From Halorubrum aquaticum (GTDB lineage Archaea; Halobacteriota; Halobacteria; Halobacteriales; Haloferacaceae): a stretch of 64,000 nucleotides of DNA. This document shows, piece by piece, positions 4,166 through 50,710 of this stretch. Location: the NCBI RefSeq assembly GCF_900113615.1, contig NZ_FOPZ01000013.1, positions 1 through 64,000 on the forward strand. Direction: 5' to 3'. Position 1 is the first letter of the stretch. The number at the start of each line of letters is the position of its first letter. Below the pieces are notes generated by a model, which was not told where the DNA came from, did not search any database, and saw nothing but the letters and a program-made list of their open reading frames with translations. The position numbers were made by a program, and so were the translations under genes.

Positions 4166-6189
4166 CGGAGCGCAAGGAGTTCCGCGACCTCGCCGAGCCC
4201 GACGCCGCCCGCGAGGCGATCGCGTCGTTGGACCTCGTGCCCGAACCGGAGTCGGTCCCGCTCGAGGAGGCCCGCGGGCGGGTGCTCGCCGAGCGCGTCG
4301 ACGCCGCGATCGACGTGCCGGGGTTCGACCGGGCGTCGATGGACGGGTACGCGGTCCGCGCCCGCGACACGTTCGGGGCCGACGAGGCCGACCCCGTCGA
4401 ACTCGACCTCGTCGGCGCGGTCCACGCGGGGGCGACCCCCGAGGTGACCGTCGAGCCCGGGACCTGCGCGGAGGTGTCGACCGGGGCGGTGATGCCGGAC
4501 GGCGCGGACGCGGTGGTGATGGTCGAGCGCACGGACGAGCGGCCGGCGGACGGAAGCGGGACTGGCGGAAACGACGGAGGCGACGATGGAGGCGACGACC
4601 GACCGGCCCGGATCGCGTTCCGCACGTCGGTCGCGCCGGGCGACCACGTGATGGCCGCGGGCGCGGACATCGCCGCCGGGGCCCGCGCGCTCGGCCCCGG
4701 AACCCGGCTGACCCCCCGCGAGATCGGGCTGCTCTCGGCGCTCGGCGTCGACGAGGTCCCGGTCCGCGGCCGGCCCACGGTGGGGATCGTCTCCACGGGC
4801 GACGAGCTGGTCCGCCCCGGCGACGACCTCGACCCCTCCCGCGGGGAGATCTACGACGTGAACTCGACGACGATCGCCGCGGGGGTCACCGAGGCGGGCG
4901 GCGAGCCCGTCCTCTACCCGCACGCCGGCGACGACTACGCGGAGATGGAGCGGCTGCTCCGGGAGGCCGCCGACGAGTGCGACCTGGTCCTCTCGTCGGG
5001 GTCGACCTCCGCGAGCGCGGTCGACGTGATCTACCGGGTGATCGAGGAGCGCGGCGAGCTCCTCCTCCACGGCGTCGCCGTCAAGCCGGGCAAGCCGATG
5101 CTGATCGGGCGGCTCGACCGCGCCGACGGGGGCGAGTCCGCCTACGTCGGGCTCCCCGGCTATCCCGTCTCCGCGCTCACGATCTTCCGGACGTTCGTCG
5201 CGCCGGCGGTCCGCGAGGCAGCCGGCCTCCCGGAACCGCGGACCGCGACCGTCGAGGGGCGGATGGCCGTCCGCGAGCGCTACGGCGAGGGGCGGCTCCG
5301 GTTGATGCCGGTCGGCCTGCTCGATCTGGGAGACGGCGGGACGACTGGCGGCGGGGCGGCTGACGGCGCGGCCGCGGACGGCCCCGCGGGCGACCGGGAC
5401 CTCCCGCTCGTCTACCCCGTCGACAAGGGGTCCGGTGCGACGACGAGCCTCGTCGAGGCCGACGGCGTCGTCGCCGTCGACCCGGACACGGAGTACCTGG
5501 AGGCGGGCGAGCCCGTCACGGTCCAGTTGTTCTCGCCGGACGTCCGTCCGCCGACCCTGCTCGGCGTCGGCGAGGACGACCCCGCGGTCAACCGCCTCCT
5601 CGACCGGCTCGAGAACCCGCGGTACCTCCCGGTCGGCTCGCGCGAGGGGCTGCGGCGGCTCCGCGACGGCGTCCCGGACGTCGCCGTGGTCGCCGGCCCG
5701 ACCGACCGCGACGTCGACAGCGTCGTCCTCGGCGAGTGGAGCCGCGAGTGGGGCCTCGTCGTACCCGACGGAAACCCCGAGGGCGTCGAGGGGGTCGCGG
5801 ACCTCGTCGACCGGGACCTCCGGTTCGTCAACCGACCGACGGAGACGGGGCTCCGCCGGAGCCTCGACGACGATATCGGGGACCTCGCGACGGAGCGCGG
5901 GGGCTCCCGGGCCGACCTGACCGACCGCATCGACGGCTACGGGCTGACGCTCCGCGCGTTCGAGAGCCCGGTCCGTCGGGTGCTCGCGGGCGACGCCGAC
6001 GCCGGACTGGGGCTCCGCGAGACCGCCGAGCGGCTCGGCTGCGGGTTCGTTCCGCTCGGCGAACAGCGGGTCGTCGTCCGCGCGGCGACCGACCGGGCCG
6101 ACCGCGAGGCGGTGGCGTCGCTCGCGGCGGAACTCGACGACGACGGGACAGAGCGGCTGCTCGCGGGGCTCGCGGGCTACTCGGCCTGA
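4162..6189 (+). CDS. moeA: MoeA fused to a periplasmic-binding-like domain
   Basis: The 675-residue protein has two parts. Residues 1 to about 430 form a MoeA core (VPGFDRASMDGYAVRARD, HGVAVKPGKPMLIG, LPGYPVSAL). Residues about 450-675 form a PBP-like domain (LLGVGEDDPAVNRLLDRLEN..., ADAGLGLRETAERLGCGFVP) of the kind found fused to the second MoeA paralogue in many archaea. The active-site loop reads SSGSTSASAVDVIYRV, whereas the upstream paralogue keeps the classical GGSSVG sequence. This suggests the two enzymes differ in metal (Mo or W) or step, with the binding-protein-like domain possibly sensing molybdate or the cofactor. That division of labour is inference. Its start overlaps the previous gene by 4 nt. 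Confidence 0.9.
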   Translation: MTERKEFRDLAEPDAAREAIASLDLVPEPESVPLEEARGRVLAERVDAAIDVPGFDRASMDGYAVRARDTFGADEADPVELDLVGAVHAGATPEVTVEPGTCAEVSTGAVMPDGADAVVMVERTDERPADGSGTGGNDGGDDGGDDRPARIAFRTSVAPGDHVMAAGADIAAGARALGPGTRLTPREIGLLSALGVDEVPVRGRPTVGIVSTGDELVRPGDDLDPSRGEIYDVNSTTIAAGVTEAGGEPVLYPHAGDDYAEMERLLREAADECDLVLSSGSTSASAVDVIYRVIEERGELLLHGVAVKPGKPMLIGRLDRADGGESAYVGLPGYPVSALTIFRTFVAPAVREAAGLPEPRTATVEGRMAVRERYGEGRLRLMPVGLLDLGDGGTTGGGAADGAAADGPAGDRDLPLVYPVDKGSGATTSLVEADGVVAVDPDTEYLEAGEPVTVQLFSPDVRPPTLLGVGEDDPAVNRLLDRLENPRYLPVGSREGLRRLRDGVPDVAVVAGPTDRDVDSVVLGEWSREWGLVVPDGNPEGVEGVADLVDRDLRFVNRPTETGLRRSLDDDIGDLATERGGSRADLTDRIDGYGLTLRAFESPVRRVLAGDADAGLGLRETAERLGCGFVPLGEQRVVVRAATDRADREAVASLAAELDDDGTERLLAGLAGYSA

Positions 6190-6219
6190 CGGGGCGGTGA
6201 AGGGCTCCCGGGTCCCGCC

Positions 6220-6975
6220 TCAATCCCGGACGATCCGCTCCTCGCCGTCCTCGACGACGACGTCGAGGCCGTGCTCGTGGACGAACGCGGCGGTGTAGTC
6301 GGGAACGATCCGCTCGGCGGCGAAGCGCGCCCGGAGCAGCGGGATCGTGTCGAGGAGGTCGGCGCGCGTCTCGAGGGAGGGGAGCGACTGGACGAACTCC
6401 ACGTCGAGCCCGGCGTCGCGGCCGCGGGCGGCGAGCGTCGGAAGCGCGGGGGAATCGAACGCGCCCTCGAAGTCGATCGGCTCGGTGAAGCCCGCGTAGT
6501 ACGCCCGCCCGCGGGTCGACGGGCCGATCACGACCTCGTTGGTCCGGAGCTTCATCGCCGCGGAGTCGACGACCGTCCGCGAGAACAGCGGCGCGGTCGG
6601 CCTCACGACCGCGACCGAGTCCGCGTCCTCCTCGCGGAGCAGGTGCGTGACGGTGTTGCCCGCGCGTGCGCCGAACGTCGACCCGACCTGCCGCTCGAAG
6701 CGGACGTCGCCGGTCCCGCCGAGCGTGTCGGCGACGACCGTGCGGAGTTCGGCCTCCGGCGGCGTGTCGGTTCGATGAGGTTCGGGAAGGGCCTCCTCGT
6801 CGGGGTAGTTGACGAGCAGGTCGCCGCCGGAGCGGTCGACCGCGAGCACGGCGTCGCGGAGGGCGGCCTCGTACAGTTCGGCGGCCTCGGCGGTCGACAG
6901 CGGCGTCGACTCCGCCAGCCCGGTCGCGACGAGCCCCTCGCGGGGCGGGTTCGCAAACACGACGACGACGGTCAT
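6220..6975 (-). CDS. DUF2064-type glycosyltransferase-like protein
   Basis: The start is ATG 6975, giving 251 residues beginning MTVVVVFANPPREGL. The protein matches the DUF2064 / TIGR04282 group, nucleotidyl- or glycosyltransferase-A-fold proteins related to an enzyme implicated in arsenosugar synthesis. Supporting segments are STAEAAELYEAALRDAV, FGARAGNTVTHLL, and VRPTAPLF followed by VIGPSTRGRAYYAGF, which matches the GP..DGGYYLIG loop of the family. It converges on the second moeA with a 30-nt gap and lies downstream of idi in the same direction. The true substrate is unknown; its position next to an isoprenoid gene might hint at lipid or cofactor glycosylation but proves nothing. Confidence 0.7.
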   Translation of the reverse strand: MTVVVVFANPPREGLVATGLAESTPLSTAEAAELYEAALRDAVLAVDRSGGDLLVNYPDEEALPEPHRTDTPPEAELRTVVADTLGGTGDVRFERQVGSTFGARAGNTVTHLLREEDADSVAVVRPTAPLFSRTVVDSAAMKLRTNEVVIGPSTRGRAYYAGFTEPIDFEGAFDSPALPTLAARGRDAGLDVEFVQSLPSLETRADLLDTIPLLRARFAAERIVPDYTAAFVHEHGLDVVVEDGEERIVRD

Positions 6976-7058
6976 ATCGGACCCAGTCGCGGCTCCGACT
7001 TCAACTCGCGGTTTCTCGCCGGCGGAACGGGAGCGGGAGGAAGCCGAAAAGCCGACTG

Positions 7059-7764: not shown

Positions 7765-9201
7765 ATGAGTGACCCGGCGCTCGACGTTGTCGAGTTCGTT
7801 CTGACCACGCACTTCTACAGCGAGAACCGCGACCTCGACGAGAACGACCTCCCGCCCCGGTTCCGGCGGGTGTTCTGGTCGGACGACGCCGCCGAGGACG
7901 CCCCCGGCGGCGTCGAGCGTCCGCTGAAGGCGACGGACGCCAGCACCCGCACGGCGACCGGCGTCGAGCGGCCCTGGGACGCGGTCTCGGACCTGCTATT
8001 CACCCAACACACCGAGTTCTCCGGCGAGATCACGCTCACCCAACCCGAGATGGGCCTGGAGTGGTACCGCGATCACGCCGACGACGACCGGATCGCCTCG
8101 AACCCGACGCTCGTCGCGGCGCTCGCGGCCGCCGACGGCCTCGAGGCACCCGTCTCCCACGAAGAGGCGCGCGACAGCGTCCGGCCGATCCAGGCGGACC
8201 GCGTCTGGATCGACGCGCTCCTCGAGGAGTACTTCGACGAGGACGAGGACGGCGAGATGCTCGACCTCGTCAACGTCCGCGCGCCCGAGGAGATCGAGAC
8301 CACGCTCGCCGACCTCGTGTTGACCGGCGACCAGGAGGAGGAGATCCAGAAGATCGTCAAGGCGATCGAACACCGCGAGTACCTCGCGAGCATCGGGCTC
8401 CGCGAGATCGGGAAGCTGCTCTTCGTCGGCCCGCCGGGCACCGGGAAGACCACGGTCTCGCGGGCGCTCGCCCACCAGCTCGGGATCCCGCTCGTCGAGG
8501 TGAAGATGTCGATGATCACGAGCCAGTACCTCGGCGAGACGGCGAAGAACGTCGAGAAGACCTTCGAGGTCGCGAAGCGGCTCTCGCCGTGTATCCTCTT
8601 CATCGACGAGTTCGACTCGGTCGCGAAGACGCGCCGGTCGGACGAACACGCCGCCCTGAAGCGCGCCGTCAACACCCTGCTCAAGTCGATCGACGAGGTG
8701 TCGCTCGTCCGCGACGAGGTGCTCCTCATCGGCGCGACGAACCACCCGGACCAGCTCGACGCGGCCGCGTGGCGACGCTTCGACGAGATCGTCAACTTCC
8801 CCAAACCCGACCGCGACATGCGCGCGGACATCCTCCGGGTCGTCACCCGCGAGATGAAGATCGCCGACTTCGACCCCGAGGAGGTCGCCGACCGGACCAC
8901 CGGACTCACGGGATCGGACCTCCGGATGGTGCTTCGGGAGGCGGTGCTCGGCGCGCTGACCGAGGACCGCATGACCATCACCCAGGAGGACGTGATGGAG
9001 GCCGTCGCCGACTTCGAGGAGCGGGATAACCTCAAGAACATGGATATGATCGACGGCGAGGGCGCGGAGGTACTCGGCCAGACCGACGACAGCGGACCCG
9101 ATCACGGGGGCGGCCACGACCACGGCGAGGGTCACGACCACGGAGACGGTCACGATCACGACGGCGACGACGCCCACGCGCACGGCCACCCGCAGGACTA
9201 G
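7765..9201 (+). CDS. AAA ATPase with C-terminal His-rich tail
   Basis: The 478-residue protein starts at ATG 7765; the open frame extends upstream but the family begins at MSDPALDVVEFVLTTHFYS. Residues 1 to about 190 are an N-terminal domain specific to halophilic archaea. One AAA module follows, with Walker [10 protein letters not shown] (Lys228), Walker B ILFIDEFD (Asp281, Glu282), sensor-1 IGATNH and the arginine-rich RRFDEIVNFP segment. A helical lid domain completes it. The last ~35 residues are His/Asp/Gly-rich, with repeated HDHGEGHDHGDG, and would bind divalent metal. Cdc48-like unfolding or chaperone activity is inferred; partners are unknown. The stop overlaps the convergent methyltransferase by 4 nt. 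Confidence 0.85.
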   Translation: MSDPALDVVEFVLTTHFYSENRDLDENDLPPRFRRVFWSDDAAEDAPGGVERPLKATDASTRTATGVERPWDAVSDLLFTQHTEFSGEITLTQPEMGLEWYRDHADDDRIASNPTLVAALAAADGLEAPVSHEEARDSVRPIQADRVWIDALLEEYFDEDEDGEMLDLVNVRAPEEIETTLADLVLTGDQEEEIQKIVKAIEHREYLASIGLREIGKLLFVGPPGTGKTTVSRALAHQLGIPLVEVKMSMITSQYLGETAKNVEKTFEVAKRLSPCILFIDEFDSVAKTRRSDEHAALKRAVNTLLKSIDEVSLVRDEVLLIGATNHPDQLDAAAWRRFDEIVNFPKPDRDMRADILRVVTREMKIADFDPEEVADRTTGLTGSDLRMVLREAVLGALTEDRMTITQEDVMEAVADFEERDNLKNMDMIDGEGAEVLGQTDDSGPDHGGGHDHGEGHDHGDGHDHDGDDAHAHGHPQD

Positions 9202-9791
9202 GCCGTCCCGTCCCGATCGAGGCGCACCCCCGCGACGGTGTAGCCGAATCCCCGGTCGACGACCGCCGGGTCGAACCCGGCGGCCTCCATGTCGTCCGCG
9301 AGCGCGTCGGGCGTCGAGAACCGCGACCCCATGCCGATCGCGTGCTCGCCGGCGACGAGGAGCCGGCCGAGCGGATGCGTGGGATCGAACTCGCGAACGA
9401 CGAGAACGCCGCCGGGCGCGATCACGCGCGCGGCCTCCCGGAGCGCGGCCTCGCGGTCCGGCAGGTGGTGGAACGCGTCGACGACCATGGCGGCGTCGAC
9501 GCCGTCGTCGCGGAACGGGAGCCGCCCCGCGTCGCCGACGACCGCCGACAGCCCGCGGGCGGTCCGCGCCCGACGGAGCATCCCGGACGAGACGTCGACG
9601 ACGGTGATCTCGGGTCCGGTCAGCGCGGCCGACGCGCGCCCGGAGCCGCCGCCGACGTCGAGCAGCCGGTCGATCGGCCGCTCCGCGCGGTCGAACCCCG
9701 CCGAGAGCGCCGCGCCGTTCGCGGACGGCATGACGAGGTCGTAAAGCGGCGCGATCCGGTCGAAGAAGCGAACGTCGCCGAGGCCGTACAT
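9198..9791 (-). CDS. Class I SAM-dependent methyltransferase
   Basis: The start is ATG 9791, giving 197 residues. The SAM-binding motif I is DRLLDVGGGSGRASAAL, motif II contains VVDVSSGMLRRAR, and motif III/post-I is the AMVVDAFHHLPDREAAL stretch typical of UbiE/Coq5-like enzymes. The opening MYGLGDVRFFDRIAPLYDLV also resembles UbiE/MenG-type quinone methyltransferases. A role in menaquinone or another lipid methylation is plausible, but the substrate cannot be fixed without context, and the neighbours give none. It overlaps the AAA ATPase gene tail to tail by 4 nt. Confidence 0.85.
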   Translation of the reverse strand: MYGLGDVRFFDRIAPLYDLVMPSANGAALSAGFDRAERPIDRLLDVGGGSGRASAALTGPEITVVDVSSGMLRRARTARGLSAVVGDAGRLPFRDDGVDAAMVVDAFHHLPDREAALREAARVIAPGGVLVVREFDPTHPLGRLLVAGEHAIGMGSRFSTPDALADDMEAAGFDPAVVDRGFGYTVAGVRLDRDGTA

Positions 9792-9852
9792 GGCGTCCGC
9801 TGCGGTCGGCGCGGAGTTATAACCCCGGTCGACGCCAGGATCACCGGGACCG

Positions 9853-47288: not shown

Positions 47289-47996
47289 TCACCGCGACTC
47301 GGGACCGACGCGCTCGATGCGCCACGAGCCGTCGTCTCCGGCGTCGGAGAGCGCGTTCTCGACGGCTCGAGCGATCCGTCCGGCGTCGTTCGAGCCCCCG
47401 GCGGCAGCGACGCTCCCGACCGAGTCCGGATCGAACGGGACGTCGAGCGCGTCGTACACCCCTTCGAGGACGGCCGCCAACTCGGCCGCGTCGTTCCGGG
47501 AGACCACGAGACAGCCCGCGACGAGCGCGGCGTCGGCACGGACCCGCTGGGCGATCCCCGCCAGCTTCCCGCCGTCGACGACGCGGAGCGAGCGTTCGCC
47601 CGGACAGAACGATCCGTGCGGTTCGCCGGCCGAGACGTCGGCCCCGACCCCTTCGAGCGCCGATCGGACCGCACGAGTGACCGTCGCGTAGCGTCCGTCG
47701 ATGCTCCCGCGGAGGTCCCTCGTCGGAACCGCGAGCGCGAACGCGAGGGTGTCCCCGGAGTACGCGACCGCCCGTCCGCCGACGTCGCGCGCGATCGGAG
47801 GGAATCCCGCCGTCTCGGCGACGCGGCGCGCCCGATCGTACCCCGGCTCCCGCGTGTCGCGCCGGCCGAACGCGACCTGTCGAGGCGGAGTCCAGACCCG
47901 GACGCCGGAGGTACCGTCGGCCGCGTCCGCGAGGAGACGGGCAGTGTGATCGTGATCGCGCCGCGGGGAACTTCCCCGTCCACGGAGGACCTGCAT
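47289..47996 (-). CDS. Lipoate-protein ligase A-like protein
   Basis: Start ATG 47996 gives 235 residues. The biotinyl/lipoyl ligase fold is indicated by VRVWTPPRQVAFGRRDTREP, the loop IARDVGGRAVAYSGDTLAFA, and VVDGGKLAGIAQRVRADAAL, in which the Lys of GGKLAGIAQ is the lipoyl-AMP-binding residue. In classical LplA the first loop reads RRxGGGxVxHD; here the GGG and His are replaced by VGGRAVAY, so a different acyl substrate or a transferase-like role is possible. It is divergent from the membrane histidine kinase, with about 100 nt between starts, and no lipoate-dependent dehydrogenase is adjacent. Confidence 0.78.
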   Translation of the reverse strand: MQVLRGRGSSPRRDHDHTARLLADAADGTSGVRVWTPPRQVAFGRRDTREPGYDRARRVAETAGFPPIARDVGGRAVAYSGDTLAFALAVPTRDLRGSIDGRYATVTRAVRSALEGVGADVSAGEPHGSFCPGERSLRVVDGGKLAGIAQRVRADAALVAGCLVVSRNDAAELAAVLEGVYDALDVPFDPDSVGSVAAAGGSNDAGRIARAVENALSDAGDDGSWRIERVGPESR

Positions 47997-48098: not shown

Positions 48099-49820
48099 AT
48101 GAGTGACCCGAGCGCGCTGCCGGTACAGGCGTATCTCCTCGCCTGCCTGCTCTCCGGAGCCGTCGGGCTCCTGCTCGGTCGCGTCGCGTGGACGGAGCGC
48201 GACGAGCCGGGCGGCCTCGAGGTCTCGCTCTACTTGGTCTGTGCGGGCGCCATCGCGATCCTGTACGCGGTCAGAGTCGCGAGCGCCGACCCCCTCGTGA
48301 TGGTCGGGGCGCTCCAGACCGCGACGCCCTTCCTCGCCGCCATGCCCGTGCTCTGGATCGCCTTCGCGTTCGCGTACGCCGGCCGAGACGAGTGGCGGAC
48401 CGAGCGACGACTCGTCGCGCTCGCGACGCCGGGGTTCCTCTGGGTCCTTCTGGCGTGGTCGAGCCGGACGCACGGACTGGCGCGGCTGTCCTTCGATCCC
48501 GTGGTCGAGGGACCGTTCACGCTCCTCGAGGGCGGGATCGGACCGGCGGGGATCGCGTTCCTCCTGTACGCCTACGGGCTGTACGTCGCGGGACTCCTCG
48601 TGATCGTCGACCTCTATCGCCGGACCGGGAACCGCTATCGGCTCCAGACGTTCGTCGCCCTCCTCGGAACGCTGTTCCCGCTTCTCGCGGGCGTCGCGAC
48701 GGTCGTCGACTTCGGAAGCTACTCGGCGGTCGACTGGACCCCGGCGGCGTTCGTCGTCCACGGCGTGTTCCTGTACGGCGTGGTGTTCTGGCTCGGGACC
48801 CTCGACGCCGCGGTCGTCGCGAGGGACACGGCGGTCGAGGTCATGCAGGACCCCGTGATCGTCGCAGGGTCGGACGGACGGATCCGGGACCTCAACCCCG
48901 CGGCGGAGCGGATCCTCCCCGACGACGCGGTCGGGGAGTCGCTGTCGACGGCGTTTCCCGGCTTGGAATCCGGCGACGAGCACCCGGTCACCATCGACGG
49001 TCGCCAGTTCGACATCCAGGAGGACCCGATCACCGACCCCCGCGGGACGGACCGCGGCCACGTCTTCCTCCTCCGGGACGTCACGGCACGGGAGCGCCGA
49101 CGGGCGGCGTTACAGCGCCGGGAGAGGCAGCTCGAACGGCAAAACGAGCGGCTCGAGGACTTCGCGGGCGTCGTCAGCCACGACCTCCGGAATCCCCTCG
49201 CGGCCGCGACCGCGGCCGTCGAGCTGGCGCGTCACGGCGACGGCGACGACGACGCGTTGGATCGGGCCGCGGACGCTCACGAACGGATGGACGAGCTGAT
49301 CGAGGGACTCCTCTCGCTCGCCACCGCGGGACGGGCGGTCGACGCGGTCGAACCGGTCTCGATCGAGGCGGCGGTTCGGACCGTCTGGTCCCGGCTCGAG
49401 ACCGGATCGGCGACGCTGGTCATCGAGGACGCCGACGAGACGGTGTTGGCGGACGGCGACCGGCTCCAGCAGCTCGTCGCGAACCTGTTCCGGAACAGCG
49501 TGGAACACGGTTCCACGAGCAGTCGGCCCGCGGCCGACGACAGCGTCGAACACGCCGGGTCGGACGTGACCGTCACCGTCGAGAGCGAGCGGACGGACGG
49601 AGAAGTCACGCTTCGGATCGCCGACGACGGTCCCGGGATCCCGGAGGAAGAGCGGGCCCGCGTCTTCGAGCGCGGCGTTTCACTCGATGACGGGACCGGG
49701 CTCGGGCTCGCGATCGTCGGCGACGTCGCCGAGGCGCACGGCTGGTCCGTGCGGGCCGTCGACGGCCCGGACGGCGGCGCGTGTTTCGAGATCGATGGGA
49801 TCGAGGTCGTAGCGGAGTGA
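48099..49820 (+). CDS. Membrane histidine kinase with 7TM-type sensor
   Basis: The 573-residue protein has an N-terminal region of about seven helices (residues 1-230: AYLLACLLSGAVGLLLGRVA, AAMPVLWIAFAFAYAG, GIAFLLYAYGLYVAGLLVIV) matching the histidine-kinase 7TM sensor domain. A PAS domain follows (about 235-340, DPVIVAGSDGRIRDLNPAAE). The HisKA helix has the phosphoacceptor His361 in VVSHDLRNPLAAATAAVELA. The ATPase domain shows an N-box (LFRNSVEHG), G1 (DDGPGIPEEE) and G2 (GTGLGLAIV). No response regulator is adjacent. Its TGA overlaps the GTG start of the M23-like gene, implying coupled synthesis. Confidence 0.92.
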   Translation: MSDPSALPVQAYLLACLLSGAVGLLLGRVAWTERDEPGGLEVSLYLVCAGAIAILYAVRVASADPLVMVGALQTATPFLAAMPVLWIAFAFAYAGRDEWRTERRLVALATPGFLWVLLAWSSRTHGLARLSFDPVVEGPFTLLEGGIGPAGIAFLLYAYGLYVAGLLVIVDLYRRTGNRYRLQTFVALLGTLFPLLAGVATVVDFGSYSAVDWTPAAFVVHGVFLYGVVFWLGTLDAAVVARDTAVEVMQDPVIVAGSDGRIRDLNPAAERILPDDAVGESLSTAFPGLESGDEHPVTIDGRQFDIQEDPITDPRGTDRGHVFLLRDVTARERRRAALQRRERQLERQNERLEDFAGVVSHDLRNPLAAATAAVELARHGDGDDDALDRAADAHERMDELIEGLLSLATAGRAVDAVEPVSIEAAVRTVWSRLETGSATLVIEDADETVLADGDRLQQLVANLFRNSVEHGSTSSRPAADDSVEHAGSDVTVTVESERTDGEVTLRIADDGPGIPEEERARVFERGVSLDDGTGLGLAIVGDVAEAHGWSVRAVDGPDGGACFEIDGIEVVAE

Positions 49821-50710
49821 CCGTGTCAGTCGATCTCCCCTCCGAGATCGTCTCGCGATACCGTCGGTTCTCGCGATTCAACTCCCCGTACCCCGCACAC
49901 GACGCCGGCCATGCGATCGATCTCTATCCGTCCGACGGAGACGGGATCTCGCCCGTCTCAGGGGTCGTGCGCGAGACGCACACCGTCGGCTGTCCCAACC
50001 GACCGTACGCTGCCTCGGAGGACCACCTGATCGTCGTCGAACTCGACGAGGAGTGGTGTCGCCGAGCGGGAGCGGCCCCGGGAACGGTCGCGCGGGTGCT
50101 CCACGTGATCCCGACCGTGGAGCCGGGCGATCGGGTCGCAGTCGGGGACTCCCTCGGACCCACGACGCGCTCCGGCTTCTTCGGCCGGTGGGTCGACGAT
50201 CACGTCCACCTCGGATTCCGGTCGTCCGGGACGAACGCGCTCCGAGCGAGCGGATCGCTTCCGGTCGGCGTGGACGTGAACGTCGCGAGCGTTCCCTGGG
50301 ACGGCACCGGGACGGTCATCGAGTGCGGGCCGAGCCACGTCACGCTGGACGCACCGACCCATCCGGATCCGGGCGAGCGGTTCGCGGCGATCGCGAGCGA
50401 CGACGGCGTCCCGATCGACGGCGGGCTCGCGCACTACGCGGGCGGCGGCGCGTTCGCGACGCTCGACGCCGGTGAAACCGTTTCGTTGTGGGGAACGCGC
50501 GTCGGGATCGCTCGCGATCGAGGGATCGAGTGGGAGCCGATCGACGTGACCGCGAACGGGGAGCGCGTCACCGGACTGTCGCTGTTCGCGGCCCGCGACG
50601 GCGACTACGGCGCGAAGATCGTCACCCCGGATCACGACCTCGCGGTCGGGGACGTGGTCTCCGTCGGAGTCGAACCGAGCGACGATCCGATCCGACTCGG
50701 CGTCGGCTGA
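49817..50710 (+). CDS. M23/lysostaphin-fold protein, cytoplasmic
   Basis: GTG 49817 overlaps the kinase stop (GTGA) and gives 297 residues. The first ~140 residues follow the M23 peptidase layout. HDAGHAIDLYPSDGDGISPV (His28, His32, Asp35) matches the first metal motif, and VIPTVEPGDRVAVGDSLG the glycine-turn strand. WVDDHVHLGFR (His129, His131) matches the HxH motif. The spacing of the first His to Asp differs by one from the classical HxxxD, so catalysis is uncertain. The remaining ~150 residues are a second beta-rich domain. No signal peptide or lipobox exists, so it is cytoplasmic, and haloarchaea have no peptidoglycan to cut. A ligand-binding role with the kinase is inferred. Confidence 0.65.
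   Translation: MTVSVDLPSEIVSRYRRFSRFNSPYPAHDAGHAIDLYPSDGDGISPVSGVVRETHTVGCPNRPYAASEDHLIVVELDEEWCRRAGAAPGTVARVLHVIPTVEPGDRVAVGDSLGPTTRSGFFGRWVDDHVHLGFRSSGTNALRASGSLPVGVDVNVASVPWDGTGTVIECGPSHVTLDAPTHPDPGERFAAIASDDGVPIDGGLAHYAGGGAFATLDAGETVSLWGTRVGIARDRGIEWEPIDVTANGERVTGLSLFAARDGDYGAKIVTPDHDLAVGDVVSVGVEPSDDPIRLGVG

Follow-up and report, generated by a model that had tools for sequence, protein, structure and literature searches.

The region between positions 48,099 and 50,710 of a 64,000-nucleotide stretch of the Halorubrum aquaticum genome (the whole of which is referred to here as the window) raises the question of whether a protein encoded directly behind a membrane histidine kinase works with this kinase or belongs to a different system. 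The original prediction had described a GTGA overlap between a seven-transmembrane (7TM) histidine kinase gene and a gene for a 297-residue protein, had assigned an M23 peptidase fold to the latter, and had proposed that it acts as a ligand or metal sensor, or as a peptidase, linked to the kinase. The gene arrangement was borne out by the reading frames and by Pfam. An ATG at 48099 opens the 573-amino-acid kinase (48099-49820, plus strand; HisKA_7TM with 3.2e-35, followed by PAS, HisKA and HATPase_c), its TGA stop occupies 49818-49820, and the GTG at 49817-49819 is a possible start of the downstream frame, giving the GTGA overlap and a product of 297 amino acids that ends at 50710. The start of this gene (49817-50710, plus strand), which is single-copy in the H. 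aquaticum genome, is uncertain given a second GTG at 49823.

Searched alone, the protein from the window had no Pfam, NCBIfam or PDB match. In its family, the commonest Pfam match was PF01551 (Peptidase_M23), found in 39 of 48 homologues with a best value of 4e-5 and always weak, the best homologue examined reaching 24.2 bits against a gathering cut-off of 28.7; the sole PDB profile match of the family was to an endolysin of a staphylococcal phage, in its M23 domain (0.012). An AlphaFold2 model built from a shallow alignment of 30 haloarchaeal sequences had a pLDDT of 64, higher in the M23 part, and a wide spread between models. Comparison of modelled residues 3-147 (approximately 49817-50260, plus strand) with known structures gave VIA Z scores of 9.6 for EnpA (rmsd 3.0 over 110 aligned residues), 9.4 for lysostaphin and 8.9 for LytM. 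Altogether about 20 M23 structures were matched with Z scores of 9.6 to 8.0, almost all structural matches of this domain were M23 enzymes, and the related PTS IIA fold scored lower (Z 6.4). The predicted structure, with which the family's PF01551 and endolysin profile matches agree, indicates an M23/lysostaphin-type fold of the N-terminal domain, with a match to M23 beyond chance. A simple hydropathy scan of 109 homologues (not SignalP) detected no signal-like or transmembrane stretch, in agreement with the predicted absence of a signal peptide, and the M23-like protein is apparently cytoplasmic.

The residues of a putative metal site were examined in the same 109 homologues, which comprise 75 haloarchaeal loci, some of them representing the same species drawn from two collections, and 34 loci from another class of Halobacteriota. 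H28, H32, D35, the stretch EPGDRVAVGDSLG, H129 and H131 were all located where they had been predicted. Of these, H28, D35 and H131 show no exception in the alignment (109/109), which spans two classes sharing only about 25% identity. H32 is not conserved; it is replaced by cysteine in 43 and by arginine in 24 of the 75 haloarchaeal homologues and was therefore rejected as a metal ligand. A fourth invariant histidine, H96 (50102-50104, plus strand; 109/109), had been missed. It occupies the position of the upstream catalytic histidine of M23 enzymes (His260 of LytM) and precedes H129 by 33 residues; in M23 enzymes the upstream catalytic histidine lies about 30 residues before the HxH motif, whose second histidine binds zinc (PMC9662197). 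Two further elements are H28-x6-D35 (49898-49921, plus strand), which corresponds to the H(x)nD motif of M23 enzymes and supplies candidate zinc ligands, and H129-V-H131 (50201-50209, plus strand), the HxH motif; both are present in all 75 haloarchaeal homologues. Judged from these alignments, H28, D35 and H131 correspond to the M23 metal triad and are candidate ligands. In non-enzymatic M23 proteins, by comparison, part of the set formed here by these three residues and H96 is described as missing (PMC9662197). R135, R143, W125 and D201-G202 are likewise invariant. H129, in contrast, is conserved in 75/75 haloarchaeal sequences but in only 11 of the 34 from the other class, the remaining 23 carrying valine or proline. 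Since H129 would be the water-activating histidine, the classical M23 mechanism cannot be complete in these 23 proteins.

Compared with M23 peptidases such as LytM, lysostaphin and EnpA (PF01551), the protein therefore has a similar predicted fold in residues 3-147 and, in haloarchaea, the same order of H(x)nD, upstream histidine and HxH, but it falls below the Pfam cut-off, its H-x6-D spacing differs from the Hx3D of M23B, it has no export signal, many members of the other class have lost H129, and it carries an additional C-terminal beta domain. This domain (residues 149-297; 50261-50707, plus strand) contains the invariant D201-G202 and a nearly invariant K267. When it was predicted alone from one homologue (L055), a pLDDT of 72.6 and a pTM of 0.71 were obtained, and its structural matches were weak (VIA Z of 4.9 or less) and limited to small beta-barrels such as the N-terminal domains of riboflavin synthase and F1-ATPase. 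The N-terminal domain has no lysine that is invariant in the 109 homologues. A carrier-type lipoyl domain was considered and rejected, the lone Biotin_lipoyl match (PF00364, 0.0016) occurring in one homologue and being weaker than the M23 match of that same protein.

A partnership with the kinase was not supported by the gene neighborhoods. A kinase lies upstream of the M23-like gene in 27 of the 75 haloarchaeal loci, all of Halorubrum type; this arrangement is seen, at 83% identity, in a record titled Halobellus captivus (L034). Close relatives of the window have 0-9 nt between the two genes, but other Halorubrum loci about 48-120 nt (leaving aside L046, with a broken kinase), so the GTGA overlap is not general even among loci of this type. 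In 43 of the 75 loci the M23-like gene and a LipL-like gene are arranged head to head, usually about 50 bp apart (mostly 40-60 bp), and the remaining 5 had neither kinase nor LipL-like gene within the flanks examined or at the search threshold. Halorubrum-type loci with sufficient flanking sequence have the same LipL-like gene on the other side of the kinase. Since the usual head-to-head neighbor is found beyond the kinase in Halorubrum, the kinase appears to have been inserted between the two genes. It is thus probably a Halorubrum-specific insertion outside the conserved system, which may have placed the Halorubrum M23-like gene under new transcription. No kinase adjoins the gene in any of the 34 loci of the other class, and a functional unit with the 7TM kinase was not sustained by these counts: homologues located away from kinases, which the original prediction had listed among the refuting observations, are the rule in most haloarchaea and in all 34 of these loci. 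In one other haloarchaeal genus, a different HisKA_7TM-PAS-GAF kinase of 797 amino acids immediately follows the M23-like gene (L070, 2602-4995, minus strand; likewise in L025); we treat this as a coincidence, a recurring regulatory link being conceivable. The H. aquaticum genome encodes seven HisKA_7TM kinases, one of which (L085, 3224-5488, minus strand) lies, probably by chance, about 3 kb from lipA (8637-9806, minus strand).

The usual divergent neighbor outside Halorubrum is represented in the window by the gene at 47289-47996 (minus strand). Its product is a member of the LplA/LipB catalytic family (PF21948, 1.2e-13) and is closest to LipL-type GcvH acyltransferases. It contains a conserved cysteine and a conserved lysine and shares the CPG and GKxAGxAQR motifs with PDB entries 2p0l and 2p5i and with LipL, the octanoyl/lipoyl-GcvH transferase. 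However, it remains well below the NCBIfam cut-offs (OctGcvHOcttfase, 1.5e-17, 64 bits against a cut-off of 400), and this motif-level similarity suggests an assignment as LipL-like only. The other LplA/LipB-family member of the genome is a separate LipM/LplA-like protein on contig C3.

Homologues of the M23-like protein were found in nearly all Halobacteria sampled, and their distribution follows that of lipoate genes. Among 76 Halobacteria genomes, 65 contain both the M23-like and the LipL-like gene, two only the former, one only the latter and eight neither (Fisher 2e-8, a value that ignores shared ancestry and overstates independence). Similarly, in 51 Halobacteria genomes LipA was present in 42 of 42 carriers of the M23-like gene and in 2 of 9 non-carriers (Fisher 3e-7, which again ignores the relatedness of the genomes and overstates their independence). 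Losses occurred in four or more lineages that are separate in taxonomy, and in two cases the affected lineage belongs to a genus whose other members retain the genes. LipS1 was absent from the 26 Halobacteria genomes tested. One haloarchaeon (G351) has LipA and a LipL-like gene (L158, 4942-5670, minus strand) but no M23-like gene; its LipL-like gene faces a long open reading frame that may resemble an M29-type aminopeptidase.

A comparable association was found in the other class (the class of genome G192), in which the M23-like protein, at about 25% identity to the haloarchaeal ones, occurs in 40 of 238 genomes. At all 34 loci analyzed there, a gene of the LipS1 family of radical SAM proteins lies directly upstream of the M23-like gene; GcvH-like genes are found downstream at many loci, and at many the upstream genes include LipS2, LplB, LplA and another LipS1. 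Genome searches detected LipS1 or LipA in 39 of the 40 carriers compared with 13 of the 198 non-carriers, and in the fortieth carrier a LipS1 fragment at a contig end adjoins the M23-like gene. The converse case is formed by 13 genomes with LipS1 but without the M23-like protein, one of which retains just a remnant of the gene (L151, 4735-4854, plus strand), and in G432, which was counted among the carriers, an internal deletion has removed the catalytic half of the gene (L155, 4213-4737, plus strand). These two degraded copies, each beside an intact LipS1-type gene, point to recent decay of the M23-like gene. LipS1 genes without an M23-like neighbor had no obvious replacement gene alongside. 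Searches of plasmids gave no match to the M23-like protein, and a scan of genome contigs returned haloarchaeal loci only. At one of the operons (L060), the LipS1-family gene next to the M23-like gene (6055-7020, plus strand) exceeds the NCBIfam LipS1 cut-off (254 bits), the copy adjoining LipS2 is below this cut-off (208), and tandem GcvH-like carriers follow 3' of the M23-like gene (7956-8381 and 8458-8880, plus strand), the first of them with the unusual lysine motif AYETIKAVSQ. The second LipS1-family gene beside the M23-like gene may be what Neti and coworkers in 2022 reportedly called 'another RS protein'.

In summary, the M23-like gene shows conserved linkage to genes for lipoyl synthases or transferases and occurs together with them. 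A role in lipoate assembly best fits the linkage to two different lipoate gene sets in two classes, the joint loss, the apparently cytoplasmic location and the invariance of the metal-site residues. We consider it likely, from these sequence comparisons, that the M23-like protein is a cytoplasmic M23-fold component of Halobacteriota lipoate assembly bearing a candidate metal site; two carriers without a LipL-like gene speak against this link. In the other class the homologues reside within operons of the LipS1/LipS2-Lpl(AB) type (Tanabe 2023; Neti 2022), behind a LipS1-family gene and often before GcvH, whereas the haloarchaeal carriers use LipA and lack LipS1. Since it is retained in both settings, the M23-like protein appears to track lipoate assembly as such and not one type of synthase. 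At the same time, the LipS1 genomes without the protein, together with the decayed copies beside intact LipS1-type genes, indicate that lipoylation does not strictly require it.

What the protein might do within lipoate assembly is less certain. M23 enzymes hydrolyze amide bonds with the aid of zinc, and the lipoyl group is linked to lysine by an amide bond as well. A role in cleaving this bond or in moving the acyl group is therefore favored, and we tentatively suggest, by analogy, a zinc-dependent amidase/deacylase or an acyltransferase acting on octanoyl- or lipoyl-lysine of carrier proteins. M23 zinc chemistry would then cleave the octanoyl-, thiooctanoyl- or lipoyl-lysine amide of carriers such as GcvH or E2, and the amidase could have an editing or recycling function; alternatively, the protein could help to move the acyl group from one carrier to another. 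Its nearest functional analogues would be the lipoamidases (Lpa of Enterococcus and sirtuins such as CobB/SIRT4), whose folds and chemistry differ from those of M23 enzymes. The main rival within the lipoate assignment, a non-catalytic adaptor that binds lipoyl carriers or the synthase or transferase and presents substrates, is likewise a possibility to be held with reserve. It would explain why many homologues of the other class have lost H129 and why the gene is dispensable in some LipS1 genomes, and it has precedents in the degenerate M23 proteins EnvC and NlpD, which act by protein contacts (PMC9662197). Moreover, the carrier domain and the M23 domain have related hybrid folds, as reflected in the PF00364 cross-match of the one homologue mentioned above. 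An adaptor would, however, not need the triad and H96, which are invariant throughout. A rather improbable alternative is that the protein, in organisms that have no acyl carrier protein, helps to supply or handle either the octanoyl donor or the intermediate of sulfur insertion; it could then be, for instance, a thioesterase or acyltransferase that depends on a metal. Its occurrence in both LipA-based and LipS1/S2-based genomes would fit a step common to both, and the archaeal octanoyl donor has been described as unresolved (PMC10332631), but no sequence feature of a thioesterase or acyl-CoA enzyme was found and this alternative is drawn by inference only.

Explanations outside lipoate metabolism are much harder to reconcile with the data. 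The sensor or peptidase working with the 7TM kinase could draw on the GTGA overlap, seen in the window and in the loci most closely related to it, and on the different HisKA_7TM kinase downstream in one other genus; yet the adjacency counts in both classes, the presence of seven such kinases in the genome and the unconserved overlap led us to reject it as the general function, and it is very unlikely. A secreted peptidoglycan hydrolase directed against bacteria is scarcely credible. Archaeal M23 peptidoglycan hydrolases do exist, and those of haloarchaea show a patchy distribution and wall-binding domains (2025, PMC12352652), but the protein described here is near-universal in Halobacteria, occurs in a lipoate context and had no detectable wall-binding domain; this reading was rejected on the missing export signal in the hydropathy scan of the 109 homologues. 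The suggestion that the M23 fold has been repurposed away from peptidoglycan is, by contrast, supported by the conserved metal-site pattern in an apparently cytoplasmic protein.

Our literature search found no M23-fold lipoamidase, and among open-licence papers neither an M23 protein linked with lipoate or lipoyl groups nor a description of this one. The survey of Tanabe 2023 (PMC10332631) maps LipA, LipS1/S2 and the ligases, leaves open the archaeal octanoyl donor for LipM homologues and suspects additional amidotransferases in archaeal lipoate assembly; the word 'peptidase' is absent from its main text, and an M23-like component is apparently unmentioned there. LipM and E2 are widely retained in Halobacteriales (Borziak 2014, PMC3904984). 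A previously unlinked conserved protein whose retention and loss parallel those of lipoyl synthase represents a concrete candidate for an open step of archaeal lipoate assembly. If the tentative amidase or acyl-moving reading is true, it would constitute an additional kind of enzyme that cleaves lipoamide or moves acyl groups, a missing archaeal component operating with LipA and LipS1/S2. A wall-cutting fold has thus probably been reused in cofactor metabolism, which, if true, would give a fold known chiefly from the degradation of bacterial cell walls a further role, inside the cell and connected with a cofactor.
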